23,543 nucleotides of DNA from a virus. Location: the IMG/VR virus record IMGVR_UViG_3300031578_000339, positions 1-23,543 of that record, one strand, 5' to 3'. This document shows, piece after piece, positions 3,187-21,803 of the stretch. The notes below the pieces were generated by a model. It saw only the letters and a program-made list of their open reading frames with translations. It searched no databases and was not told where the DNA came from. Position 1 is the first letter of the stretch; every line of letters begins with the position of its first letter. Both the position numbers and the translations under genes were made by a program.

Positions 3187-4918
3187 AGATTACAAGCGGA
3201 CTTCTTTAGGCTGGCAGTCGGAGAACCTGAGGATAATTGATAAGAAGGCCATGCTCGTGCCTCTTAATCACAACAAGGCCCAGCTCAAGGTCAACAATGC
3301 CATGGCCCTCCAGATGAAGCACAATTTACCGATTATGCTCATCATCCTCAAGGCCAGGCAGAGGGGTATATCAACGAAGATAGAAGCGGACATATTCGAG
3401 AGAATTAACCGCAGGGAAAACGCTCACGGGTGCATTGCGTCGGCTGACAAGGACTCCACTGAAAAAGTTTTTAGAATGTGCGAGACGTTCCAACAATCTA
3501 TGCCTCTTGAATTAAAGAGACTTACAGACAGGGCCTCAGCGAAAGAGATACGTTACAGGCCGCCTCATCGTTCATCTATGCTCTGCCAGACTGCCGGCAA
3601 GAAGGTACTGGGGCGTGGTGGTACAACTCAGTATGTTCATGCCACAGAAGTAGCTTTCTGGGAAAACGCTGCTACACAACTATTAGGTTTGAGGCAAGAA
3701 GTGCCTAATGACCCGGATACAATGATTGTACTCGAATCTACCGCAAATGGCGTTGGAGGGGCTTTTTACGATGAATACTGGGCTGCTGTTGCCCGCCTAA
3801 GGGATGATCCCCATAATTATCGGGGATATCTACCCATTTTTCTATCCTGGCAGGACGAGGAAGAATACCAAGAGCCGCTACCCAAAGGATGCAAGACTGT
3901 ACCCAATATGACATCGGATATGGAGGAGTACGTCAAAGAAGGGATGGCTATGGGCATTTCTCTGAGCCCAGAGCAGATATACTTCGCCCTCTTGACTATT
4001 CAAAACCGATGTGGTGGAGACATATCAAGGTTCAAAGCGGAGTATCCCAGGACGGCAAGGGAAGCGTTCCAGAGCACAGGTCGAATGGTCTTTAACCCAA
4101 TCGACCTTGATACAATGGCCCAAGCGTGTAGAGAGCCCTCGGCGCAAGTAGAGTTTTTTGAGATTGAAGGCAAGGTCAAGTATCGGCACGTCAACCGCAG
4201 GCAGAACTGCTGGTATGTCTGGATGTGGCCGACTAAGAACCATAGCTATTGTTCTTTTGGCGATGTGGCCGAGGGGTTACTATCAGACTCCAATGATGCC
4301 AAGAGTGACCCGGACCGCTCTGTGGCTGCCATATTAGACCGTAATCATTTTCACGTATCTGCGACATACTACGGACGCCCGGACACAATCGAGTTTGCCG
4401 ACCAGATGATAATGGCCTCTAAATTTTATAACTATGCCTGGTCAAGCCCGGAGATGAACTCAATAGGCCAGAGCATACTCGATGCGTTCAAGCGTGCCGA
4501 TTATCCGTTCATCTACCAACGCGAGCACAAAGAGGAGACGGTACAGCGTGAAGACTCTAAGAAGCTCGGTTGGAAGACAACTACATTGACTCGTAAGCCA
4601 ATGATAGCCGACCTCCAGAAAGTTACGCAGGAGCACGAGCTTATAGTCTTTGATGTTCGGTTTATTGATGAGATGAGGGTATTTGTCTGGAACTCACAGG
4701 GCAAGCCTCAGGCAGAGACAGGTGAGCATGATGATTGTGTTATCACCTTGGCAGGCTTGATTCAATTACACCAGAGATGCCCGCTCAACGAGGACTTGTC
4801 CTGGGACCGCGAGGACACCGAACCTATACGACCAATATCAGTAATGGGTGCGACCGAGCCGGAAGATGATGAGGACGGGCTTGATTTATTGTACGAAGAT
4901 ATGAGCGATTATGAATAG
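3167..4918 (+). CDS. terL: Terminase large subunit
   Basis: This 583-residue protein is the ATPase/nuclease motor that pumps DNA into the procapsid and cuts it. The deviant Walker A motif LKARQRGIST is at residues 61-70, the Walker B region YVHATEVAFW at 156-165 with catalytic Glu161, and the coupling motif ESTANG at 190-195. The RNase H-like nuclease half shows FGDVAEG (Asp366), PEMN around 428-431, and HDDC (Asp522/523) near the C terminus. Length is normal and both enzymatic halves look intact. The GTG start at 3167 has AGGAG with good spacing. The frame stays open beyond its TAG stop into a SEC-C motif (see 4919-5029). It is probably co-transcribed with terS. Confidence 0.95.
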   Translation: MVTALLEDYKRTSLGWQSENLRIIDKKAMLVPLNHNKAQLKVNNAMALQMKHNLPIMLIILKARQRGISTKIEADIFERINRRENAHGCIASADKDSTEKVFRMCETFQQSMPLELKRLTDRASAKEIRYRPPHRSSMLCQTAGKKVLGRGGTTQYVHATEVAFWENAATQLLGLRQEVPNDPDTMIVLESTANGVGGAFYDEYWAAVARLRDDPHNYRGYLPIFLSWQDEEEYQEPLPKGCKTVPNMTSDMEEYVKEGMAMGISLSPEQIYFALLTIQNRCGGDISRFKAEYPRTAREAFQSTGRMVFNPIDLDTMAQACREPSAQVEFFEIEGKVKYRHVNRRQNCWYVWMWPTKNHSYCSFGDVAEGLLSDSNDAKSDPDRSVAAILDRNHFHVSATYYGRPDTIEFADQMIMASKFYNYAWSSPEMNSIGQSILDAFKRADYPFIYQREHKEETVQREDSKKLGWKTTTLTRKPMIADLQKVTQEHELIVFDVRFIDEMRVFVWNSQGKPQAETGEHDDCVITLAGLIQLHQRCPLNEDLSWDREDTEPIRPISVMGATEPEDDEDGLDLLYEDMSDYE

Positions 4919-5029
4919 GAGAATAAAAAGAACGTACAAATCCCAACGAAGTTAAGACGTAATGCCCCCTGCCACTGTGGTTCGGGGCGCAAGTACAAGA
5001 AATGCTGTGAACAGAAGGAGCTAAAAGCT
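4919..5029 (+). other. SEC-C zinc-motif coding segment without a start codon
   Basis: Directly after the TAG of the large terminase gene, the same frame stays open and encodes NAPCHCGSGRKYKKCC (4961-5008), a textbook SEC-C metal-binding motif. It then continues in frame into the gene at 5030. No ATG, GTG or TTG lies between the stop and the motif. A separate ATG at 4911 starts a 14-codon frame that ends just before the motif in a different frame. Readthrough, a frameshift, a rare start codon, a decayed gene or a sequence error could each explain this. Confidence 0.6.
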
Positions 5030-5563
5030 ATGGAAGAAGAAAAACAGATTGTAACGCCACACAGTCTCAAGAATGAATTTCGAGATGAAGTCAGAGACCC
5101 TTACGCCGGTATCCCCGCACATGAGCTCGTCACCCGGGACACGGTTGTTCTATTGATTGAGCTGAGATTCCGCAAGGAAGCTATTGAGGCGGACTACGCA
5201 CATTTCGAGGCAGCTATTGAAAGAGGGAAGGATGTGCGCAATGCACTTATGACCTTGCCAAAATCACCATACAAGGAGGCCGTCTTAGCAGACATTGAAG
5301 CACAGATTAAGGCCCAAGCAGATAAGGCCAAGACAATAAGATTACCAATGTCGCTGAACCTTACCTTGCTGGCTTTGGAAGAGCTCTTTGAGCAACCTGG
5401 ACCACCAATAGAAGACGCTGAACTTAATGCAATGGGCGTTGCCACTGAACAAGAAGATTTAGCTGACGATGATGCTGAAGACGAGCTGACCATCCCCGAT
5501 GAACCAGAGGAGACGGACGAAGACGACAACGATGAAGACGATAATCCAAACGAAGCGATATGA
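5030..5563 (+). CDS. Acidic hypothetical protein
   Basis: This is a 177-residue protein. Residues 1-130 are probably mostly helical; the last 45 residues are almost entirely Asp, Glu, Pro and Asn, giving a very acidic disordered tail. Such tails occur in scaffold- or chaperone-like virion assembly proteins, but no family is recognised. The ATG at 5030 has AAGGAG 8 nt upstream, so it is a credible start. In the same frame, however, an upstream SEC-C motif (4961-5008) could be the true N-terminal part. It lies between terminase and the exported-protein block. Confidence 0.7.
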   Translation: MEEEKQIVTPHSLKNEFRDEVRDPYAGIPAHELVTRDTVVLLIELRFRKEAIEADYAHFEAAIERGKDVRNALMTLPKSPYKEAVLADIEAQIKAQADKAKTIRLPMSLNLTLLALEELFEQPGPPIEDAELNAMGVATEQEDLADDDAEDELTIPDEPEETDEDDNDEDDNPNEAI

Positions 5564-5814: not shown

Positions 5815-8006
5815 GAAAGATTCTCATAATATTTCTGATGGTTCTAAGTGCTGAATGTTGCTTTGGCGTCACGAATTACTTTGTAGCTACCAACGGCAAC
5901 GATGATACTGGGGATGGTTCAATTGGCACTCCCTGGGCAACTCTTGACAAGGCGAGAACAGTAGTCCAGGGAAATACTGATTGCATTGTTAATATACGGG
6001 TAGGTACGTATTATCTAACCAGCACATTTACTTTGGACGCAGATGATTCGGGGGCTGATGGATTAAAGAATATTTGGCAAGCCTATGAAGATGAAGTTGT
6101 TTATATCAAAGGCTCAAAGACCATTGCCTATGGGGATTTCTCTGTTTATAGTGGTTCCATTTTAACCGCCGATGTTACTGCATATAGCATCAGTGACCCA
6201 TGCCAAGTGTTCTTCAATGGCACGAGATGCCGAAGGGCGAGGGTTCCTAATTTTAATGCTGCTAATCCATATTCGAGTATGTTTCCATTATATCCAGCCT
6301 CAGATACATCAGGCGATGGTGATAATTTCAAATACACAGCAGGAGATGTTTCTCCTGCAACTTGGACGAATGTTACGGATATTGAAGTTGATATGCACGG
6401 AGGCTGGTGGAATATATGGAAGCAGGTAGCCAGCATAAACTCGGAAACTCGTACAGTCACCTTACAAAGTGCATTGAAATCAACAATAATAACTGGTCCA
6501 CCCAATAGATATTATTTCAATAACGTATTTGAAGAGTTGGACGCTGCTGGTGAATGGTATCTGGATGGTATAGACTTTTATATCTGGCCTCTTGATACAT
6601 GGGATGCCGGAGATGTAGTTACAATAGATTATACTGAAGATTTAATATCACTTGATGGTGTTGATTTTGTAACTCTTGAATCGCTGAATATTGGGGAGTG
6701 TAAAGGTGAAGCAATAACCTTACATGATGCGGAAGATGTAGATGTCAACGGTTGTACGATAACTAACTGTGAAGAAATGGGAGTATCTATTACTGATGGT
6801 TATCGTTGTAAAGTTCGCAATAGTGCAATTAACAATACAGGGCATTGGGGCGTTTATGTAACAAATGATATTAGTTATCGAAAGAATCTTACAAGTTGTG
6901 CCCATGAGATTAGTGGTAACACTATTCATAATACCGGATGGTTCAGGAAGGGTTCGACCGCTGGGGCGATAAATATCTGGAGAGCAGTAGGCGTTACTGC
7001 AAGTCATAATGAAATTTATAACGAACCACGAATTGGAATCCGTGTTTCGGAGGGAAATGATAATGTAATAGAATATAATTACATTCACGAAGTTAATCGT
7101 GAGTCATGCGATTCTGGTGGTATCTATGCTTTGTCAACCTTCTGGCAACAACTTGGCAATGTTATTCAATATAATTATATTTACGATGTAGGAGGTTACG
7201 GATGGGATGGGGATAGCTTTGAAACTAATTATCAGGGCTATGCGATATACTTGGATGATTTCGCATCAGGTTATACTATCTACAAAAATATTATAAGGCC
7301 ATTTGGAGATGCTGGAATTTTACTTCATGGGGGTCGTCATAATACGATAACCGAAAATTACATCTCTGATTATATAACCAACCCAGCAGTACCTATTTAT
7401 TTTTCTGGTATAACCAATGAGAATGCTTCTTTACCTGGAATGTGGACTCAACTTAAGCAAGTTGAAGAATCGGAAGATGGGTGGGATGGAGCGGCATATT
7501 TATCAGCTTATCCTTGGATGTTTGATGTAAAAGAGCCAGTATGTGACCAAAATGACATAATGAGCTACAATGTCTTTACTGACAATGTAATAATCACCAA
7601 TAACTATGATAGACCTGTTTACAAAGTACGATGGCTTGATGAGCCCAACTCAGTCATCAATAACAATATTATTTATCCAGGCACTTACACGAAGTATATA
7701 TATGTGTATGGTGATACCACTGGCCCCAAAACTTGGGCTTACTGGACTGCTAAGGGTTTTGATATAGATACAAATGATATATCGGTGACTTACGATCCAG
7801 ACCCAACCAGCCTTTCATTGTACGTGAATACAGGGACAATTGCTGCTGATTACTCTCTTGCCAATGACAAGACGCATATAGACCCGAATGGCGTTACCCA
7901 TTCAGTCTCAATAAATTTGAGTCCATTTGAATATGATATTATGTTCGAGTGGCCAAGAAATGTATATTTATTTGCAAAGCTTTTTAGGAGAAATCAAAAT
8001 GAGTAA
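5811..8006 (+). CDS. Exported right-handed parallel beta-helix protein
   Basis: This is a 731-residue protein. Residues 1-20 (MRKILIIFLMVLSAECCFGV) look like a Sec signal peptide. Then NYFVATNGNDDTGDG...PWATLDKA is the usual N-terminal opening of pectate-lyase-like beta-helix proteins. Residues about 280-540 contain repeated Asn-rich coils (such as HNEIYNEP, IEYNYIHEV and IQYNYIYDV) typical of parallel beta-helix (PbH1/NosD-type) repeats. In a phage this fold is usual for tailspikes that bind or cleave surface polysaccharide, so a receptor-binding or depolymerase role is likely. Catalytic residues are not identifiable. A signal peptide is odd for a virion protein. It overlaps the next gene's start by 8 nt. 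Confidence 0.85.
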   Translation: MRKILIIFLMVLSAECCFGVTNYFVATNGNDDTGDGSIGTPWATLDKARTVVQGNTDCIVNIRVGTYYLTSTFTLDADDSGADGLKNIWQAYEDEVVYIKGSKTIAYGDFSVYSGSILTADVTAYSISDPCQVFFNGTRCRRARVPNFNAANPYSSMFPLYPASDTSGDGDNFKYTAGDVSPATWTNVTDIEVDMHGGWWNIWKQVASINSETRTVTLQSALKSTIITGPPNRYYFNNVFEELDAAGEWYLDGIDFYIWPLDTWDAGDVVTIDYTEDLISLDGVDFVTLESLNIGECKGEAITLHDAEDVDVNGCTITNCEEMGVSITDGYRCKVRNSAINNTGHWGVYVTNDISYRKNLTSCAHEISGNTIHNTGWFRKGSTAGAINIWRAVGVTASHNEIYNEPRIGIRVSEGNDNVIEYNYIHEVNRESCDSGGIYALSTFWQQLGNVIQYNYIYDVGGYGWDGDSFETNYQGYAIYLDDFASGYTIYKNIIRPFGDAGILLHGGRHNTITENYISDYITNPAVPIYFSGITNENASLPGMWTQLKQVEESEDGWDGAAYLSAYPWMFDVKEPVCDQNDIMSYNVFTDNVIITNNYDRPVYKVRWLDEPNSVINNNIIYPGTYTKYIYVYGDTTGPKTWAYWTAKGFDIDTNDISVTYDPDPTSLSLYVNTGTIAADYSLANDKTHIDPNGVTHSVSINLSPFEYDIMFEWPRNVYLFAKLFRRNQNE

Positions 8007-8736
8007 AAGAACAAAAAACAAAGTGATGAGATGTGGCAAGATAACGATAGTTACTCTTTGTCTGATGTTGGCAGTGGGATTTGGATTTCTTACAGCGTTT
8101 TGGCCAATACAGAAAGCCAATGCAGCAGATATTACTAAATCACAAGGTGAATTGTATGCCTGGACATTGCTGGATGATACTGCTGGTGTTCCATATCTTG
8201 AAACAGGTGTGCATACGTACACCGATACGCTATCTTCCGTGCTTAATGTTGCTATGGTGAATGTAGGAGCTGTTGCCGACTCTGGTTCTGTTGGCTTTAA
8301 GATATTTGTTAGATACGGGGCGGCAGATGATGGATGGCGTGAATGGATAAACCTTCAAGCAGATGTAGCCGTAGCCGTAACTATTGATGTTGATGCAGAA
8401 GCAGCATCAGCACAAGCAGTAATACCGTTATCAGCAACAACTAACTTTGATGAACCTGCTCAAATAGGCAAAACTTTCTTTTTGCGGGATGCTACTTTAG
8501 CAAATTCAGAATTAGTGATATGGGGTGGTGTTTTTGAGAATGATGTTTCCATTACTGTCATTGACAATTTAGTGAGAACACACGCAGACACAGCAGATAT
8601 TTATCAAGTTGTAAAACAATGGAATATCCGGTTGCCAAACGGCAATGACGAAGCAAAGGTTGTATTTTATAATCAGGATGCGGATGCTAATTATGCCTGC
8701 CGTGTGGATTACGCTAATGAGGACGACATTGAATGA
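7999..8736 (+). CDS. Exported hypothetical protein
   Basis: This is a 245-residue protein. The ATG at 7999 is chosen over an upstream in-frame ATG at 7927 because AGGAG at 7986-7990 fits it and it begins with a clear signal peptide: MSKRTKNK, a hydrophobic core at about residues 15-35, and an ANAAD cleavage site near residue 40. The mature part is rich in Ala, Val, Asp and Thr, likely beta-sandwich, with no recognised family. Its stop overlaps the LamG gene start (ATGA). Position and export signal suggest it acts with the neighbouring exported proteins. Confidence 0.7.
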   Translation: MSKRTKNKVMRCGKITIVTLCLMLAVGFGFLTAFWPIQKANAADITKSQGELYAWTLLDDTAGVPYLETGVHTYTDTLSSVLNVAMVNVGAVADSGSVGFKIFVRYGAADDGWREWINLQADVAVAVTIDVDAEAASAQAVIPLSATTNFDEPAQIGKTFFLRDATLANSELVIWGGVFENDVSITVIDNLVRTHADTADIYQVVKQWNIRLPNGNDEAKVVFYNQDADANYACRVDYANEDDIE

Positions 8737-9662
8737 AAAAGCTAATCACAACATTACTACTTATCTTTCTACTTGCGAGCGTAGCTTCTGGGCAATGGTT
8801 ATATTCACAGCAAAAGCCTCCTCTGGGCAGCCAGATAGACCGGGGAAATTCTCTTACTAACGGTCTTGTTTATGCCTCGTTTTTCCTTGAGGGTTGTGGC
8901 AATAAAGTATTTGACCTATCAGGGAATAATTTACAGGTAAAAGCCTGGAATGGCACTCCGTTATGGATTGCTGGCAATAGAGGGCCATCGTTAGAATTTG
9001 CCAAAGCAAGTTTTGAATATGTTGAGGTTTCAAATTCGCCAGTCATCTCTTTTGGAGCCGGAGATTTTACTGTCGTAGTTGAATTTGTTAAATATACAGC
9101 CTCTGTAGGTTGGACTAATATTTCGATTGTTAATAAATGGAATAGTAGTGGTTCTGCCGGTACGAATGAATGGGCATTACAATCGAGTATTACAGGGGAT
9201 GATGATAAGCCATGTTTTTCTATAGAATACGAAAATACCATTGTTAATGCTAACTCGGCTACCGCTTTAACATTGGGTCAATACTATCAACTTATAGGGG
9301 TCAAAGATTCTACGGGGATTCATTTATATAGAAATGGCATCTTAGATGTCGAAAATCTATGCGGTCAACAAACAATCAATACGGTTGCAGCCAGAGATTT
9401 GAATATTGGTCGAATAGATGCAAGTGCTGTCAATTATACATTAGATGGAGCAATTTCTTACATATATCTTTTCAACCGTGCCTTATCCTCCACTGAAGTT
9501 CAGCAACTCTATAATCCATTCTGCGTATTCCAGACAGATTACACAAGCCTTTGGCAGAGTGCTTTGGGAGAAGAAATTCCAGGGACATGGAGCGTTGCTT
9601 TGTTAGGTGATGCTAAATCAGCCGGAAAAAGTGCAGGCAAAAGTGCAGGTAAACAAGACTAA
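8733..9662 (+). CDS. Exported LamG/concanavalin-like protein
   Basis: This is a 309-residue protein. Residues 1-20 (MKKLITTLLLIFLLASVASG) are a clear signal peptide. Residues about 45-265 fit a LamG jelly-roll: an opening strand VYASFFLEG, KVFDLSGNN, SLEFAKASFEYVEV, FTVVVEFVK, then YRNGILD, LNIGRI and the closing LDGAISYIYLFNRAL-S-EVQQLYNP typical of bacterial LamG domains. It probably binds glycans on the host surface or the capsid surface. The C terminus ends in three SAGK units (KSAGKSAGKSAGKQD). It is co-translated with its upstream neighbour through an ATGA overlap. Confidence 0.85.
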   Translation: MKKLITTLLLIFLLASVASGQWLYSQQKPPLGSQIDRGNSLTNGLVYASFFLEGCGNKVFDLSGNNLQVKAWNGTPLWIAGNRGPSLEFAKASFEYVEVSNSPVISFGAGDFTVVVEFVKYTASVGWTNISIVNKWNSSGSAGTNEWALQSSITGDDDKPCFSIEYENTIVNANSATALTLGQYYQLIGVKDSTGIHLYRNGILDVENLCGQQTINTVAARDLNIGRIDASAVNYTLDGAISYIYLFNRALSSTEVQQLYNPFCVFQTDYTSLWQSALGEEIPGTWSVALLGDAKSAGKSAGKSAGKQD

Positions 9663-9674
9663 AGGAGACATATA

Positions 9675-11282
9675 ATGTTTAGAAAAAGAAATTTGGTTAT
9701 TGTAATCATTTGTATTTTGTCAATTCTCGGAGGCATAATCGCTAATGCCGCTGAAATTGTAGCAAATCATGCTGATGACCAGTCATTCTACATGGTTATG
9801 TATGACAGGAACGGCGACCCGAATACAAGTATCACTGTCACAACCCTAAATATGTTTTATGTGGAAGATGGTGCTACATCGGTAAGTGTGGGGGCATGTT
9901 CCGATTTGACTGCCGAGAATGCAGCACATACAGATGGTGGTGCTTACGAAATAGGCACATCCGGTCTTTATCGTTTCGATTTTCCAGATGCCGCCTTCGA
10001 TGGTGGTATAAACAAACGAGTGACCCTCTGGATTACCGACGATATTACGGGAACGAGAAATTCATATCTTACCGTAATGCTTTCTCCACCAGTGAATATC
10101 GATGCTATCGACAGCAATAATCTTGCTTCTCAAAATGCCCATGCTTTCTATGGTAATGTCGGAGCGGGAGACCCCTACGAAAGATTCGAGGATATGTTTG
10201 ACACTACCAAAGTGAGCATTGCTACTATATACAGCGACCCACATACTCAAGCCAACTTAGAGACGTATTCTCAGACGGGTGCTGATGCAGCTTTGGTGGC
10301 TCTTGGCCTTGACCATCTTACAGTATCTACCGGTGTGGCTGCCGGGGGTGACTTGACAACCTATGTCGCGGATTTATCAATTCTCGGTCATTTAATATCT
10401 AATGCGGATACTTCAACTTATAGTTCTGCCACTGATAGTCTTAAAATCTTGAGTGATAATCAAACTACGATTGCGGGATATACGGATGACATAGGCGTTG
10501 CCGGTGTGGGGCTTACTGAAGCTGGGGGGGATGGCGACCACTTAACTGCAATCAACTTGCCAAATCAGACCATGGACATCACGGGCAGTTTGTCTGGAGC
10601 GGTAGGTTCTGTAACTGGAGCTGTTGGAAGTGTGACGGGTGCGGTTGGTAGTGTAACCGGGGCAGTAGGTTCTGTAACCGGAGCCGTAGGTAGTGTGGCA
10701 GGAAATGTTGATGGAAATGTATCCGGTTCAGTTGGGAGCAATCTTGATTTAGATTCTACGGCAGAATTTGATGCTTATAATGCAACTGTGGTGACAGCAG
10801 TAGGCGTTATTGAAACTGCTGCTACTGCTGCTAAGACGGCTGCGGAGAAAATAGATACAGCATCTGAGTTGAGGACGTTACTTGTAGGGACTAATCTTCC
10901 TCTGGCTGCTGGGCTTAATTACACAACCATTGCGACTTTGGCAAGCCAAACCAGTTTCACATTGACGGCAGGTTCGGCGAACAATGATGCGTATAACGGT
11001 TGCACAATCATTATTCAGGACGTTTCAACTGCGGCACAAGTGGCGGTTGGAACAGTTAGTGATTATACAGGTTCCTCAAAGACTGTGACTTTAGGCGCTG
11101 ACCCGCTTGCTGCTTTCGTAATGGAAGCTACAGATAAGGTGTTAATATTGCCGGGAACATCCATATCAGTAGCGGCTTTAGCTGATATTGGCGATGCTGT
11201 CCGTGGAGAACCCCTAACGAGCGCCGAAACGGTCAATACGCTTGGCTGGTACATAAGGTTAGTAGGCGATTTACAATTCTAA
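9675..11282 (+). CDS. Exported repeat-containing virion-type protein
   Basis: This is a 535-residue protein. Residues 1-26 (MFRKRNLVIVIICILSILGG onward, cut near ANAAE) are a signal peptide. Residues about 35-135 form a beta-rich domain with GGAYEIGTSGLYRFDFPDAAF, a pattern seen in many phage neck or fibre proteins. Residues 308-342 are five GAVGSVT heptads, followed by a GNVDGNVSGSVGS stretch, as found in fibrous phage proteins. A C-terminal beta domain (AYNGCTIIIQD...) follows. It is probably an accessory fibre or head/neck decoration. AAAGGAGA lies before the ATG. Function is inferred from composition only. Confidence 0.75.
   Translation: MFRKRNLVIVIICILSILGGIIANAAEIVANHADDQSFYMVMYDRNGDPNTSITVTTLNMFYVEDGATSVSVGACSDLTAENAAHTDGGAYEIGTSGLYRFDFPDAAFDGGINKRVTLWITDDITGTRNSYLTVMLSPPVNIDAIDSNNLASQNAHAFYGNVGAGDPYERFEDMFDTTKVSIATIYSDPHTQANLETYSQTGADAALVALGLDHLTVSTGVAAGGDLTTYVADLSILGHLISNADTSTYSSATDSLKILSDNQTTIAGYTDDIGVAGVGLTEAGGDGDHLTAINLPNQTMDITGSLSGAVGSVTGAVGSVTGAVGSVTGAVGSVTGAVGSVAGNVDGNVSGSVGSNLDLDSTAEFDAYNATVVTAVGVIETAATAAKTAAEKIDTASELRTLLVGTNLPLAAGLNYTTIATLASQTSFTLTAGSANNDAYNGCTIIIQDVSTAAQVAVGTVSDYTGSSKTVTLGADPLAAFVMEATDKVLILPGTSISVAALADIGDAVRGEPLTSAETVNTLGWYIRLVGDLQF
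10596..10700 (+). repeat. Five tandem 21-nt coding repeats
   Basis: Five consecutive 21-nt units encode GAVGSVT (the last GAVGSVA). The protein repeat is almost perfect, but the DNA differs mainly at third positions, so the repeat is old and kept by selection on the protein. Confidence 0.85.
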
Positions 11283-17076: not shown

Positions 17077-17373
17077 ATGGCTGCATTTGATAATGGTATT
17101 CAAAAGATGGTAACTCTTGCCGGAGTTCGCATGGAGGAAGGCGCTGGCGTCACTATTGCCAATGTCCCTACGACTGCGAATCTGTCTAAACAGACGTTTA
17201 CTATAGCTACAAAGCTAAAAAAGGTGCTTGCTGGTTTTGGCATAATGGACACTGATGGTATGGTGGCCATTGCAACTACCGGAGCGCCTTCAAATGGTCA
17301 GGTTACATTTACCAGATTTGCACCTGTAGAAACCAGTGCCGACACGCTTACTTACATCTTGTTTGGATACTAA
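17077..17373 (+). CDS. Hypothetical capsid-accessory protein, strongly initiated
   Basis: This 98-residue protein starts MAAFDNGIQKMVTLAGV and has many short beta-prone stretches; it might be a decoration protein. The ribosome site AAAGGAGG is a near-perfect match to the 16S tail, suggesting very high expression, as expected for a multicopy virion protein. Its last 26 nt overlap, on the opposite strand, the end of the first HNH gene, and a terminator follows. Confidence 0.7.
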   Translation: MAAFDNGIQKMVTLAGVRMEEGAGVTIANVPTTANLSKQTFTIATKLKKVLAGFGIMDTDGMVAIATTGAPSNGQVTFTRFAPVETSADTLTYILFGY

Positions 17374-17863
17374 GATCGCTTCTTCTTCTGAGATTGGAGT
17401 GACCCTTCGGGGTCGCTCCTTTCTTATTATGGAGTTTACTGTGGCATACATTGCAAACAGCAACGACATCCAACCGATGCTCTGGTGCATAACCACGATA
17501 ATGATGGTATTGCTTTGCAGACTTTCCGCAGGAGCATTGCAAGGAATTAGGACGGGGCAATTTGCCAATTTGAACAGCACATTGTACGGCACTTACAGCT
17601 TTTTCATATTCAGGATGAATAATTCTATATCGGTTCATACATTTATTAAAAGTGTTTTTACCTTTTGGACTTTGTTTATAACGTTTTTGTGCGTTTTTGC
17701 CTTTCTCGGTTTTGCGATATTGTTGCTGATATTGTTTTTTGCAGGTTTTACATTGAGGTTGAAGACCATCTTTATCCCTTTTTCTGTGGGATTTATGAAA
17801 CTCAGAAGGCGATTTGAAATGCTTGCAAGTGCAACATCTTTTGGTTACGATAGTTTCAGACAT
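17348..17863 (-). CDS. HNH-type homing endonuclease, copy 1
   Basis: This is a 171-residue protein. Zinc-binding Cys pairs lie at residues 10-13 and 38-41; the middle is a basic linker with YRKTEKGKNAQKRYKQSPKGK repeats. The C-terminal HNH core runs from CSC (110-112) through YHHYRGYAPEHRLDVVAVCNVCHSKLH (about 119-145), with the HH pair and CxxC-H of bba-metal nucleases. It should nick or cut DNA and promote its own spread. The ribosome site GGAG lies before the ATG on the - strand. It is antisense to the late genes, has its own promoter (17937-17964) and leader hairpin, and is related to the second copy at 19733-20353. Confidence 0.85.
   Translation of the reverse strand: MSETIVTKRCCTCKHFKSPSEFHKSHRKRDKDGLQPQCKTCKKQYQQQYRKTEKGKNAQKRYKQSPKGKNTFNKCMNRYRIIHPEYEKAVSAVQCAVQIGKLPRPNSLQCSCGKSAKQYHHYRGYAPEHRLDVVAVCNVCHSKLHNKKGATPKGHSNLRRRSDLSIQTRCK
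17396..17425 (+). terminator. Intrinsic terminator with TTCG loop
   Basis: GGAGTGACCC (17396-17405) pairs with GGGTCGCTCC (17410-17419), ten pairs with one wobble, around TTCG. A T-rich tail follows. It lies inside the 3' coding end of the antisense HNH gene, so that gene's C-terminal residues are encoded by the hairpin. Confidence 0.85.
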
Positions 17864-17898
17864 GGCTTTTCTCCTATAAAGAAAAGTTTATGTTTAGG

Positions 17899-17929
17899 GC
17901 CGGTTGCAGTTTACACGACTGCGGTCGGC
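17899..17929 (-). promoter_or_regulatory. 5'-leader hairpin of HNH copy 1
   Basis: On the - strand, GCAGT pairs with ACTGC around the loop CGTGTAA, inside an outer GCCG/CGGC helix. The second HNH copy keeps loop and outer helix but has GCAAG/CTTGC, two compensatory changes, so the RNA fold is selected. The hairpin begins about where the promoter's transcript should start. Confidence 0.75.
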
Positions 17930-17936
17930 TCGCTTT

Positions 17937-17964
17937 ATTGTATAGGCAGTAAAGAGAATGTTAA
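17937..17964 (-). promoter_or_regulatory. Promoter of HNH copy 1
   Basis: On the - strand, TTAACA (17964-17959) lies 16 bp upstream of TACAAT (17942-17937). The same -10 and spacing recur before the second HNH gene. Confidence 0.65.
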
Positions 17965-17992
17965 ATAAAAAAATTATTTAGGAGAAGAAAGA

Positions 17993-18766
17993 ATGGACAC
18001 AAAAGTGCTTGAGACATTGAATTACAGGCGCAAGGCTTATGTAACAACACTTAAAAGCTCAAACGGGGAAGAAATGAAGTTACCAAGTCCACAGAAAGCG
18101 CTCTATAGCACAATGCACAACAGCCACAAGGGATATAGATATGTAAACCAGGGAATAAAGACGGCCTGCGACTGGATTCATCTGCTGCGAGACGGAAGGG
18201 GTGAAATTCATAATCCCTGGACAGACACGCCTATTACTGTGGTTGAGCTTGGATGTGGCAATGGCATACTTTGTAGTTTGCTGGTGGATATGTGCTTCGA
18301 TGTTACCGGAGTTGACATATATGAAGGCAAAATTATTTATAACAGGAAGGGATATAAGTTTATTGAGCACGACCTAACCAAGTTCCCTTATCCCTTCAAG
18401 GACAATGAGTTTGATTATTGTTTGTCTTTTGATGTTCTCGAACACTTGACTGAAAACGAAATTGCCGCCGTCCTAAGAGAAATGGCACGAATAAGTCGCG
18501 GTATTTTCCTTAAAGTATCGTGTCATGGAATACCGCCGCTCCACATTACGATTAAAACTCCCGGATGGTGGATGAACCAGTTGACAACAAATTGTCCTGA
18601 TTTTTCATGGCAGCTATTGAGGAATTTTGAACGGATTGCGGTAGATAATGGCCGTGTAGGTAGTACCGTTAATACATCATCGGATATTCGGCCATTCAAG
18701 AACGGCGAAAAAATCACCTATGCTCCCTTGTTTCATGGCAAAAGGGGTGTAATTGATGAAGATTAA
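17993..18766 (+). CDS. SAM-dependent methyltransferase
   Basis: This is a 257-residue class I methyltransferase. Motif I VVELGCGNG (residues 83-91) binds S-adenosylmethionine, the acidic Asp108 in VTGVDIYEG contacts the ribose, and FDYCLSFDVLEHL (140-152) is the motif seen in small-molecule and glycan methyltransferases of the UbiE/Methyltransf_11 type. The substrate cannot be read from sequence; its partnership with a radical SAM enzyme and a glycosyltransferase points to a sugar or surface polymer. The start has AGGAG well spaced before ATG. The end overlaps the radical SAM start by 11 nt, so translation is coupled. Confidence 0.85.
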   Translation: MDTKVLETLNYRRKAYVTTLKSSNGEEMKLPSPQKALYSTMHNSHKGYRYVNQGIKTACDWIHLLRDGRGEIHNPWTDTPITVVELGCGNGILCSLLVDMCFDVTGVDIYEGKIIYNRKGYKFIEHDLTKFPYPFKDNEFDYCLSFDVLEHLTENEIAAVLREMARISRGIFLKVSCHGIPPLHITIKTPGWWMNQLTTNCPDFSWQLLRNFERIAVDNGRVGSTVNTSSDIRPFKNGEKITYAPLFHGKRGVIDED

Positions 18767-19808
18767 ACTCTTTTTATGCGGCGGCGAAGATCCTGTAAGT
18801 GAATATCCACTTGGACTTGGCTACTTAAAGTCAAACTGTACCGGCGATATAACCATCGTCAAAGACAGGGCCGAACTTGTGGATTGCGATTTAATTGGTC
18901 TGAGCTCTACCGTAGGCGGATTGGTTGAAGCCATAGACATCCTGACGAACACAGACATTCCGGTAGCTATCGGCGGGCAAGGTACTATGTGGGATGGGTT
19001 GGATGATTACCCGTTTAAGTATATTATTCATGGCGAAGGCGAAAGGGCGTTGCAGGAGATTATTGACGGCAAGGTGAACGGCGATAAGCACATAAGATTC
19101 AATAATATGCCTGACCTGGACACCTTATGTTTTCCAGACAGAGGCAAATGCGGGGAAGAAGTCCCTATTCTTACGAGCAGGGGTTGTCCCTATAATTGCT
19201 ATTTCTGCTCGTCACATAATTATTGGGGCAGGACCAGATGGCACTCTGCGGAGTATTTTCTTGATGAAGTGGATTTTATTAAGTCGAACTATCCGAAGTC
19301 CTGGATTTTATACATCATGGACGATTTGTTCATAGTCAATCTGGAGAGGTTCAACAAGATATACGAGCAATGGATGAAAGACGGGCTTAATACCAGATTT
19401 AGCTTAAAGGGCTTCGTCAGGTCCAAGTGGATGACCCTGGAAAGAGCTACAAAGATGAAAACTATGGGGTTCGGGAGCGTTCGTTTCGGTGCTGAGTCCG
19501 GCAGTAACAGGATGCTTAAAATTCTCAACAAACAGGAAACAGTTGAGGACCATCAGAGGTGCGTGGATATATGTAAGCAGGTTGGTTTGAATGTATGCTG
19601 TTCACTGATGCAGTATCTACCGGGCGAGACTATCGAGGACAGGATACTAACAGACGAGTTCAGGAAGAAGAACAATCGTACCTTGTGTATATCCGGCAAT
19701 TATAAGTTCCAAAGATTTCCGGGCACACACTTTTATGACGGAAGCAGTCCATTAGAGGGGGACTGGAGAACCCGAGGTGCGGTTAAAAAAGAACGAGTCT
19801 TACCATGA
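18756..19808 (+). CDS. B12-type radical SAM enzyme, probably truncated at the 3' end
   Basis: This is a 350-residue protein. The N-terminal part (to about 125) resembles a cobalamin-binding fold (LIGLSST, VAIGGQGT, IHGEGERAL). The [4Fe-4S] motif CPYNCYFC supplies Cys144, Cys148 and Cys151, followed by FGAESGSNRML and LPGET, which are typical radical SAM core stretches. It likely performs a methylation or rearrangement on an unactivated carbon. ATG 18756 is preferred to TTG 18753 because AGGGG is well spaced. The last codons (about from 19733) overlap the antisense HNH copy 2, and the TGA stop appears to come from that insertion. Confidence 0.85.
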   Translation: MKIKLFLCGGEDPVSEYPLGLGYLKSNCTGDITIVKDRAELVDCDLIGLSSTVGGLVEAIDILTNTDIPVAIGGQGTMWDGLDDYPFKYIIHGEGERALQEIIDGKVNGDKHIRFNNMPDLDTLCFPDRGKCGEEVPILTSRGCPYNCYFCSSHNYWGRTRWHSAEYFLDEVDFIKSNYPKSWILYIMDDLFIVNLERFNKIYEQWMKDGLNTRFSLKGFVRSKWMTLERATKMKTMGFGSVRFGAESGSNRMLKILNKQETVEDHQRCVDICKQVGLNVCCSLMQYLPGETIEDRILTDEFRKKNNRTLCISGNYKFQRFPGTHFYDGSSPLEGDWRTRGAVKKERVLP

Positions 19809-20353
19809 CACTTATTGCAGACAGGAATAACGTCAAGCCAAAATTTAGGCTCATATCCCTTGTGGTGGTGATAGTGTTCTGCCTGTGTGGGACAATAATG
19901 ACACTGCAAGGTATTAACTGGAGGCAATTTGCCAACCCTAACAGCATAGGCCACGGCGTTCTTTGCTTTAAGTTGTCCGGGATGCCGAGCAATATAACAT
20001 TTGTGAGTCGCTTTGCGTTTTTCGGGATGTTGAGTTCGATAAAGTTTGCGAGCGGCTTTGCATTTTTGGCTTTGTTCATAACGTGCTGCAGTGGCCTTGC
20101 CTTTCTCACTTTGTCTGTAACGGTGTTTTCTCCCAAGATTAAGATTAGTTGCTTTCCCTTTTTCACTTTGACGATAGCGTTCTTGTGCGATTTTACCCTG
20201 TTCTGTTTGTCTATATTCTTTTCCATAGCTCGAGTAGCAAATTTTGCAACGATTCTTATAACCATCTTTGTTATGTGGTTGTTTGAAAAATTCAGCAAGT
20301 GGTTTTGTTTGCTTGCAAGTGTTGCAGGTTTTTGTTTTAATTGGTTCAGACAT
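19733..20353 (-). CDS. HNH-type homing endonuclease, copy 2
   Basis: This is a 206-residue protein with the same plan as copy 1: MSEPIKTKTCNTCK start, CKIC at 36-39, a longer linker with three YRQSEKGKAT-like repeats (about 59-100), and an HNH core from CHYC (151-154) through YHHHKGYEPKFWLDVIPVCNKCHGK (about 161-185). Its final 20 or so residues are encoded by the opposite strand of the radical SAM gene, implying insertion into that gene. It has the ribosome site GGAG, its own promoter (20424-20451) and a leader hairpin. It is antisense to the late genes. Confidence 0.85.
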   Translation of the reverse strand: MSEPIKTKTCNTCKQTKPLAEFFKQPHNKDGYKNRCKICYSSYGKEYRQTEQGKIAQERYRQSEKGKATNLNLGRKHRYRQSEKGKATAARYEQSQKCKAARKLYRTQHPEKRKATHKCYIARHPGQLKAKNAVAYAVRVGKLPPVNTLQCHYCPTQAEHYHHHKGYEPKFWLDVIPVCNKCHGKTRSFLTAPRVLQSPSNGLLPS

Positions 20354-20385
20354 GGTTTTCTCCTTATAAGAAAATCGTGTTTAGG

Positions 20386-20416
20386 GCCGATTGCAAGTTA
20401 CACGCTTGCGGTCGGC
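20386..20416 (-). promoter_or_regulatory. 5'-leader hairpin of HNH copy 2
   Basis: On the - strand, GCAAG pairs with CTTGC around CGTGTAA, within an outer GCCGA/TCGGC helix. Compared with copy 1, two base pairs of the inner stem have changed in a compensating way while the loop is identical. Confidence 0.75.
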
Positions 20417-20423
20417 TCGCTTT

Positions 20424-20451
20424 ATTGTAACAGCAATAAGGTGAATTTCAA
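20424..20451 (-). promoter_or_regulatory. Promoter of HNH copy 2
   Basis: On the - strand, TTGAAA (20451-20446) lies 16 bp before TACAAT (20429-20424), matching the arrangement at copy 1. The similarity of the two cassettes extends through this promoter. Confidence 0.65.
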
Positions 20452-20489
20452 ATATAAATCTGAAAATTTTTAGAAGAAGGAGTAACAAA

Positions 20490-21803
20490 ATGAAAATTGG
20501 AGTTTACACATTAACTAACCAAAGGGACAAGTTCATTGACCATCTTTTAGCGGAAAAGTTGCGCCAATATGGTCATACTGTTTTGATACGCAACTTTGTA
20601 TATGGCGCAAGAGAATCGGTATATTATGAAAAGCCTGATGTGATTGTGGTTCCGTTTCCGGGAGGGCAGTACAAGTACGACTTTGTTAAGCTCTGCAAGA
20701 AATGGGGTATAGTGGTTATTGTCCGGCGTGGCGAGGCCGGTCAGGGACGAGAGCAGTTTGAGAAACTTAGCGATGATTACAAAACGGTCATTCTCGGTAA
20801 CTGGGATTATAGTCCTTACGTTGATTTGGAATTGACGTGGGGGCAGGAGTTTTCGGACATCATTGCAGAACAAAGTAATATGCCTGCCGAGAAGATAAAG
20901 GCTTGCGGTGCTTTTGCCTTTGACCCATATTTCCAACCCGACCACAGGAGGAATGAGAATCACGAAAAGACCATTCTCTTTGCAACGGGCTTCTCAACAG
21001 CCGATTGCAGGAGTGAGTATTGCGAGACTGGATTGCCTGAAGAATCAGACTACCACGAAAAATTATATGCCATACACCGAAAGGCAAGGGATAAATGGAT
21101 TGATGCCATCAAGAAGCTGGTGAAGTGGTTTAGTTTGAACTGGCGATTTGAATTGAAAGTGCGTCCGGGCGAATCTGTTGCCGAGTACAAAAAAATGCTG
21201 CCTGATTGTGTTAAGATACATCCAGAAGATACTCCATCGTCTATTGTGCTTTGTGATGTTGATGTTCTTGTCCATAGCGGCTCAACAATGGCAATCGAAG
21301 CCCACTTGCTCGGCATACCATCATTCAACTTTTGTAATGTCAATCCCGATCCGCTTCTCTCTATGGCAAGTCCGAGGTTAGAGACTTACGAGGAGCTTGA
21401 ATGGAATCTGGCGAGGGCTGTTGTAGGCCAGTCGAATATCAACGAGTCTGTTTTCAATGAACTACAGGAACATCTTTACGGCACGATTGACGGCAAGGCT
21501 TGCGAAAGGGCGTCTAAGTACATTCACGAGTATGTCAGTAGCAAAAAGATTAAGACGAAAATTCCGAATAGCTGGCCGAAAAAACCGACATATCTTGTTG
21601 AGGGTGTTCACCTGAAACAGCAAGAAGGGGATGTGCGATGGACTTGTCCATGCTGCCGTAATATTTATTACGGTCCGGTTGCCGGAATCTTGAACTGCCC
21701 CTGGTGTTCTATGAAAATCGAAAGAACACCGATAAGGCCAGAGACAGAAAGGCCCGCAGGAAAGATAAGGGTAACTCGAAATCTTGAATCGGTGCTGAAA
21801 TAG
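20490..21803 (+). CDS. GT-B-like surface-carbohydrate glycosyltransferase
   Basis: This is a 437-residue protein. An N-terminal Rossmann-like half (MKIGVYTLTN, VIVVPFPGGQ) and a C-terminal half with LKVRPGE (222-228) and VLVHSGSTMAIEAHLLGIPS (259-278) match the donor-binding pattern of GT-B or CDP-glycerol/Kdo-transferase-like surface carbohydrate enzymes. A C-terminal zinc ribbon follows (CPCC at 386-389, CPWC at 403-406), not a usual part of that family. It probably transfers a sugar or phosphopolyol to host surface polymer or virion. AGAAGGAG lies before ATG. It belongs with the methyltransferase and radical SAM genes. Confidence 0.75.
   Translation: MKIGVYTLTNQRDKFIDHLLAEKLRQYGHTVLIRNFVYGARESVYYEKPDVIVVPFPGGQYKYDFVKLCKKWGIVVIVRRGEAGQGREQFEKLSDDYKTVILGNWDYSPYVDLELTWGQEFSDIIAEQSNMPAEKIKACGAFAFDPYFQPDHRRNENHEKTILFATGFSTADCRSEYCETGLPEESDYHEKLYAIHRKARDKWIDAIKKLVKWFSLNWRFELKVRPGESVAEYKKMLPDCVKIHPEDTPSSIVLCDVDVLVHSGSTMAIEAHLLGIPSFNFCNVNPDPLLSMASPRLETYEELEWNLARAVVGQSNINESVFNELQEHLYGTIDGKACERASKYIHEYVSSKKIKTKIPNSWPKKPTYLVEGVHLKQQEGDVRWTCPCCRNIYYGPVAGILNCPWCSMKIERTPIRPETERPAGKIRVTRNLESVLK

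Follow-up and report, generated by a model that had tools for sequence, protein, structure and literature searches.

Nuclease genes and their promoters

The stretch of DNA analysed here (hereafter the window; 23,543 nt, IMG/VR virus record IMGVR_UViG_3300031578_000339) carries two HNH endonuclease genes, both located on the minus strand: copy 1 at 17348..17863 (171 aa) and copy 2 at 19733..20353 (206 aa). Their products match the "endonuclease" family PHROG 2340 (E 1.4e-19 and 1.3e-18, respectively), and no Pfam HNH model scored above the cut-off for either of them. The two proteins share 44% identity and their genes are widely divergent. In the copy 1 protein, an N-terminal zinc ribbon is followed by YxQSxKGK repeats and a C-terminal HNH part. 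The structure model of the nuclease (pLDDT 93.6) shows a weak resemblance to HNH enzymes, with Hpy99I (for the zinc part), the GVE2 HNH and the Gme HNH as the best chains (Z 5-6), and Foldseek alone gave no significant match for this model in the PDB.

Genes for a methyltransferase, a radical SAM protein and a protein of 437 aa with a Cys-rich C-terminal segment are located at 17993-21803 (plus strand), amid the phage structural genes. Elsewhere in the window (10584-10702, plus strand), a virion-type protein contains at least four tandem repeats of 21 nt, encoding GSVTGAV repeats.

A previous, sequence-only reading of this locus had proposed that each nuclease gene has its own promoter with a TACAAT box at 16-bp spacing, and this is what we found: TTAACA-16-TACAAT at 17937..17964 for copy 1 and TTGAAA-16-TACAAT at 20424..20451 for copy 2 (both on the minus strand). 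The predicted mRNA starts lie at approximately 17931, which is the first base of the leader hairpin H1, and at approximately 20418, respectively. These promoters are the two best sigma-70-like sites of the region, but the total number of such sites (seven) equals that of shuffled sequences (8.3), and they are therefore credible only because they are common to both copies and their relatives. In 36 leaders of the family, H1 starts with a purine and is directly preceded by a pyrimidine. No direct repeat shared by the two cassettes is longer than the leader (81 nt, 83% identity), which comprises three helices: outer H1, inner H1, and H2, which is formed around the Shine-Dalgarno sequence.

Distribution and covariation of the leader

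Relatives were collected by protein-profile scans of IMG/VR and GTDB genomes, which gave approximately 120 locus hits (some places being represented twice), and a covariance model trained on seven leaders identified 37 leaders in the fetched loci. These precede 37 HNH genes, i.e. the two of the window, 34 of other environmental phages and one on a Sedimentisphaerales MAG contig, the one locus that the profile scan of the GTDB genomes provided. With one RNA model applied to the fetched loci, all 37 leaders end on the start codon of the HNH gene. A phage record with two leader-bearing HNH genes (L103) was reached by means of a 14-base leader pattern, for which it was the only real hit among 120 matching stretches.

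A second RNA model, run on whole phage records, yielded four further, held-out leaders, which precede two HNH genes of the family, one fusion (L336) and one decayed cassette (L339). In the fusion, the leader is followed by a 270-aa open reading frame, in which the zinc-ribbon N-terminus of the family is joined to a different nuclease (HNH_3; Pfam match above the cut-off) whose C-terminal segment resembles a helix-turn-helix. This suggests that the leader and the N-terminus are mobile as one module. The decayed cassette has retained H1 and the promoter, and a deletion has fused its leader to the C-terminus of the nuclease (EHFLDVIPVCV).

Many relatives of the nuclease do not possess the leader: it was absent from the leaderless IMG/VR relatives examined and from the further HNH hits obtained in genomes with the protein profile. 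Single-protein scans of IMG/VR returned no relatives and, in 392 Planctomycetota genomes, the weak RNA-model hits other than L172 had no HNH gene behind them. One candidate leader-bearing relative (L123) was rejected as a chance match. Among the 4227 covariance models of Rfam, none reached its gathering score in the window, and ten related loci gave a sub-threshold match to R1162 alone (E 0.99).

The leader-bearing cassettes are antisense to both flanking genes in 28 of 30 cases, in comparison with 12 of 33 for the leaderless relatives (Fisher p 1.8e-6); these counts are ORF-based and the two exceptions may be miscalled. The downstream phage gene usually begins within approximately 60 nt of the leader. 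Presence and absence of a cassette between related genomes was observed in one pair: in L240 the cassette is placed directly after the terminase gene, and the window, whose terminase is 79% identical, has no cassette at this site (4900-5050).

Within the aligned stems of the 37 leaders, 95% of the cells are paired and 132 cells show double-sided changes (34.6 in shuffles); the leaders are kin, and such cell and sequence counts do not represent independent events. The covariation score is 0.576, in comparison with 0.174 in shuffles and 0.025-0.174 in slid controls (in which pairing drops to 31-49%), for an alignment that was fitted to a structure-assuming model and leans towards that structure; the codon 2 and promoter tests presented below were made without it. 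The outer stem GAGCCG/CGGCTC varies by phage (GAGCCA/TGGCTC, AAGCCG/CGGCTT and GAGTCG/CGACTC were found). A pseudoknot between the H1 loop and the linker, judged by eye, showed no covariation.

On the basis of the two window copies, the compensating arms GCAGT/ACTGC and GCAAG/CTTGC had been taken as direct evidence of a selected RNA structure tied to a homing-type nuclease. The arms are indeed present. Two copies alone are thin evidence, but over 37 leaders the covariation is overwhelming, and the connection with this type of HNH nuclease holds; other members of the family also carry the hairpin with compensating changes, as the earlier reading had required of itself. The loop CGTGTAA, identical in both window copies as described, is not invariant in the family (copy A of L103 differs).

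Strand of the structure and a predicted promoter within the coding sequence

The hairpin had originally been placed in the leader of the HNH mRNA. On this strand its stem is interrupted by an internal gap (3x3 in copy 1, 2x2 in copy 2), whereas on the opposite strand all 15 bp pair without interruption, with G·U pairs, in both copies. The respective stem energies are -20.3 and -23.8 kcal/mol on the opposite strand versus -12.1 and -14.0 kcal/mol on the HNH-sense strand, and this uninterrupted helix of lower energy was a first hint that the strand had been misread. Family-wide, the aligned stems contain 4 G-U and 24 A-C cells when read in the sense direction, the A-C cells being G·U pairs on the opposite strand. 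In 34 leaders, the internal 3x3 block is 77% paired antisense versus 36% sense, and the part that extends over the start codon reaches 87% pairing antisense versus 63% sense.

The pairing involves the second codon of the nuclease gene. On the antisense strand, the first base of codon 2 and leader column 84 form a pair in 36 of 37 cases (shuffle mean 18.7; 0/20000), with L126 as the only exception, and also in 3 of 3 held-out leaders. Ala2 and Thr2 accompany C84, while Ser2, Pro2 and Phe2 accompany A84; in the Pro2 and Thr2 cases pairing occurs on the antisense strand only. The pair between column 83 and codon 2 is formed in 37/37 leaders antisense (35 as G·U) versus 2/37 sense.

Read on the plus strand of the window, the element comprises two hairpins. 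Hairpin A (17858..17895 in copy 1, 20348..20382 in copy 2) covers the complement of codon 2, the start codon and the Shine-Dalgarno sequence, and is thus complementary by position to the ribosome-binding site and start codon of the HNH gene. Hairpin B, at 17897..17931 in copy 1 (15 bp, 5-nt loop) and 20384..20418 in copy 2 (all 15 bp paired), is the previously described hairpin seen from the other strand. That hairpin is real, but it forms only half of a conserved element of two hairpins, the other half, over the ribosome-binding site and start codon, having been overlooked.

A candidate promoter for an RNA of this strand is embedded in the coding sequence itself: TTGCAA-17-TACGAT at 17823..17851 in copy 1 and TTGCAA-17-TTTAAT at 20313..20341 in copy 2 (both on the plus strand), with the A at 17858 and the A at 20348 as the respective putative +1 positions. 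In both window copies hairpin A starts exactly at this +1. The family pattern, TTGCA-N17-TATGAT followed by A, lies within HNH codons 5-14. The -35 box (TTGCA) stems from an invariant Cys-Lys, 17 nt upstream of the -10; the -10 box, which is TATGAT in 18 genes and a variant such as TACGAT or TATAAT in most of the rest, consists of codons 5-6 read on the opposite strand; and the +1 A, 6 nt downstream of the -10, corresponds to the third base of codon 2. The -10 box is weak in some members (TTTAAT in window copy 2; TTGAAT in L266, L328 and L337).

The choice of synonymous codons follows this pattern. At codon 6, Ile is encoded by ATA in 24 of 24 cases (background 0.28) and Val by GTA in 6 of 7 (0.13); at codon 5, 24 of 31 Ile codons are ATC (0.29). 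Ala2 is always GCT (20/20; background 0.33), and the third base of codon 2 is T in 36 of 37 genes. When all conserved codon columns are ranked by their bias, columns 2, 5 and 6 fall within the top five. When the N-termini were recoded synonymously in 3000 trials, the observed -10, -35 and +1 scores were never attained (0/3000 each), and a family-wide synonymous-site test gave z = 4.8 for the -10, 4.1 for the -35 and 7.2 for the +1 A. After clustering at 55% protein identity (34 clusters), a third-base A at residue 6 was found in 27 of 28 informative clusters. Early codons can also be constrained for other reasons. The base-pair statistics, the promoter signals embedded in the coding sequence and the codon 2 covariation all point to selection acting on an RNA of the opposite strand, and not on a hairpin of the HNH mRNA leader as had been assumed.

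The two remaining columns of the most biased five, 199 (Leu TTG) and 21 (Ser TCN), also show a strong synonymous bias and lie far from the leader.

A putative counter-transcript and competing explanations

Downstream of hairpin B there is a U-rich tail, GCTTTATTGTA, at 17932..17942 in copy 1 (where it overlaps the HNH -10 box) and at 20419..20429 in copy 2 (both on the plus strand). In the family, this sequence (G-Y-T-T-T-A-T-T) is also the complement of the -10 region of the HNH promoter. Judging from the sequence, the strong hairpin B with its U-tract looks like a weak terminator; the tract is short (a mean of 4.7 T in 8; at least 3 T within the first 6 in 28 of 36), which makes termination at this point uncertain.

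Of the roles suggested earlier for the leader structure (regulating expression, binding the nuclease or guiding mobility), we favour the regulation of expression, and we consider it reasonably probable that the HNH cassette encodes a cis-antisense RNA of approximately 75-80 nt, which would block translation of the nuclease in the manner of IS10 RNA-OUT. According to this model, the cassette would consist of an HNH gene with its own sigma-70-type promoter and a counter-transcribed RNA. The RNA would start at the A inside codon 2, from the opposite-strand promoter in codons 5-14, fold into hairpin A and then hairpin B (the complement of the HNH mRNA 5' end), and probably terminate at the weak U-tract, which covers the HNH -10 box; the length stated above would follow from this. 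Pairing of the HNH leader with this RNA would prevent ribosome binding, so that the nuclease would be kept low where the element is established, with a burst on entering a phage without it. The sequence comparisons themselves show the strand preference, both hairpins, conservation of the two promoters, covariation of codon 2 with the leader and antisense placement of the cassettes; production of the RNA, its end point, the repression of translation and the spread of the cassette by its own nuclease are steps that we infer. The computed duplex gain is -94 and -82 kcal/mol within the own cassette versus -50 and -41 kcal/mol with the other copy. We see an even chance for a broader proposal, namely that the element represents a new antisense RNA family, encoded at the start (first 14 codons) of the mobile HNH nuclease genes in uncultured phages, which has shaped residue 2 and the synonymous codons, and which limits nuclease expression as a copy-number-like, allele-specific control of homing. 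If true, this would show how a selfish nuclease spreads without damage to its phage, and would provide both a compact natural on/off module and a clear example of a protein sequence that is constrained by an overlapping RNA gene.

In the strongest rival explanation, the promoter and hairpins of the antisense strand serve the downstream phage gene: the inserted cassette would provide this gene with a promoter and with a 5' UTR that is structured and stabilising, and would thereby also be hard to lose. We regard this as rather unlikely, although much is compatible with it: the cassettes are antisense to the operon, with a phage gene usually close behind the leader; the U-tract is weak, and a read-through RNA into the phage gene would bear the same hairpins; and a review of T4 reports endonuclease genes that harbour promoters of the genes downstream and whose retention is favoured in this way (PMC2988022). 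Moreover, a strong terminator-like hairpin is present on the plus strand (17396-17419) after a small structural gene, within the C-terminal codons of copy 1 and upstream of its cassette, and the downstream genes may therefore need a promoter there. What such a role leaves unexplained is the start exactly at codon 2, the exact coverage of the HNH ribosome-binding site and leader, and the covariation of residue 2 with the leader; besides, a 15-bp hairpin with a U-rich tail is a poor opening for a message. Any transcript from the embedded promoter would be antisense to the HNH start, and the counter-RNA and the supply of downstream genes are thus not exclusive. An improbable alternative is that the hairpins work in the HNH mRNA, where H1 would stabilise the 5' end and H2 would mask the Shine-Dalgarno sequence, in the style of T4-type homing endonucleases, which offer a precedent. 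Almost every leader does have its Shine-Dalgarno sequence within H2, sense-strand pairing of the H2 core reaches 97% and the predicted mRNA start coincides with the first base of H1, but the opposite strand pairs better everywhere, including the pair of column 83 with codon 2, and the coding-embedded promoter would have no explanation.

RalR/RalA is a known pair of a DNase toxin and an RNA antitoxin, and the architecture of the cassettes would be compatible with a type I toxin-antitoxin system, composed of a toxic nuclease and an antisense RNA as antitoxin. We give this little credence, because several divergent intergenic cassettes per phage, decayed remnants and domain swaps suit selfish mobile nucleases better. 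It is just as hard to credit that the element acts as a DNA palindrome, forming single-strand hairpins by which the cassette would recombine or transpose. Strand-asymmetric hairpins do occur in HUH-type elements, and G-T is tolerated in DNA hairpins too, but the element is confined to the gene's 5' end and overlaps two canonically spaced promoters, none of the genes examined was seen to encode an HUH or Y1 protein, and the single filled/empty site pair points to cassette ends at positions other than those of the hairpins.

Antisense control has its classic examples in transposases and plasmids. The counter-RNA proposed here is reminiscent of the RNA-OUT/RNA-IN system of IS10 (Tn10), in which an RNA of approximately 70 nt (RNA-OUT is a 69-nt counter-transcript) begins inside the gene of the mobile enzyme, is complementary to its translation start and ends near its promoter (PMC5006887). 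The HNH cassettes differ in encoding a nuclease within phage operons, in having two hairpins and in the maintenance of the promoter by synonymous codons, and we claim no homology. ISPpu9 also has a mobile-element enzyme under the control of a leader structure and an antisense sRNA, Asr9; however, Asr9 activates translation, and the element and enzyme are different (PMC8450116). RNA-structure control of phage homing endonucleases is exemplified by the hairpins masking the ribosome-binding sites of T4-type I-TevI, segB and mobE, and segD is, like the HNH cassettes, antisense to its neighbours; the T4-type hairpins differ in acting on the sense strand, with middle or late promoters, and no counter-transcript is described for them (PMC2988022). 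The antisense RNA CfrI of cyanophage S-PM2 is likewise tied to a homing endonuclease gene but, as cited, it maps to the interval from psbA to the F-CphI gene and is linked to psbA instead of the nuclease start codon (PMC12197685). Among open-licence PubMed Central papers, we found no prior report of a dedicated counter-RNA that targets a homing-type nuclease at its start codon.

In isolate phages, operon genes of the PHROG 2340 or endonuclease VII-like kind encode proteins with approximately 30-36% identity to that of L270. These relatives differ from the cassettes in being co-oriented with their neighbours: they are ordinary genes situated close to recombination and replication functions, beside SSB, Erf or primase genes, and overlap or closely follow the upstream gene. 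In the phage record L103, a 1483-aa open frame (6097-10548, plus strand) runs antisense through the entire HNH cassette into a tail-type gene.
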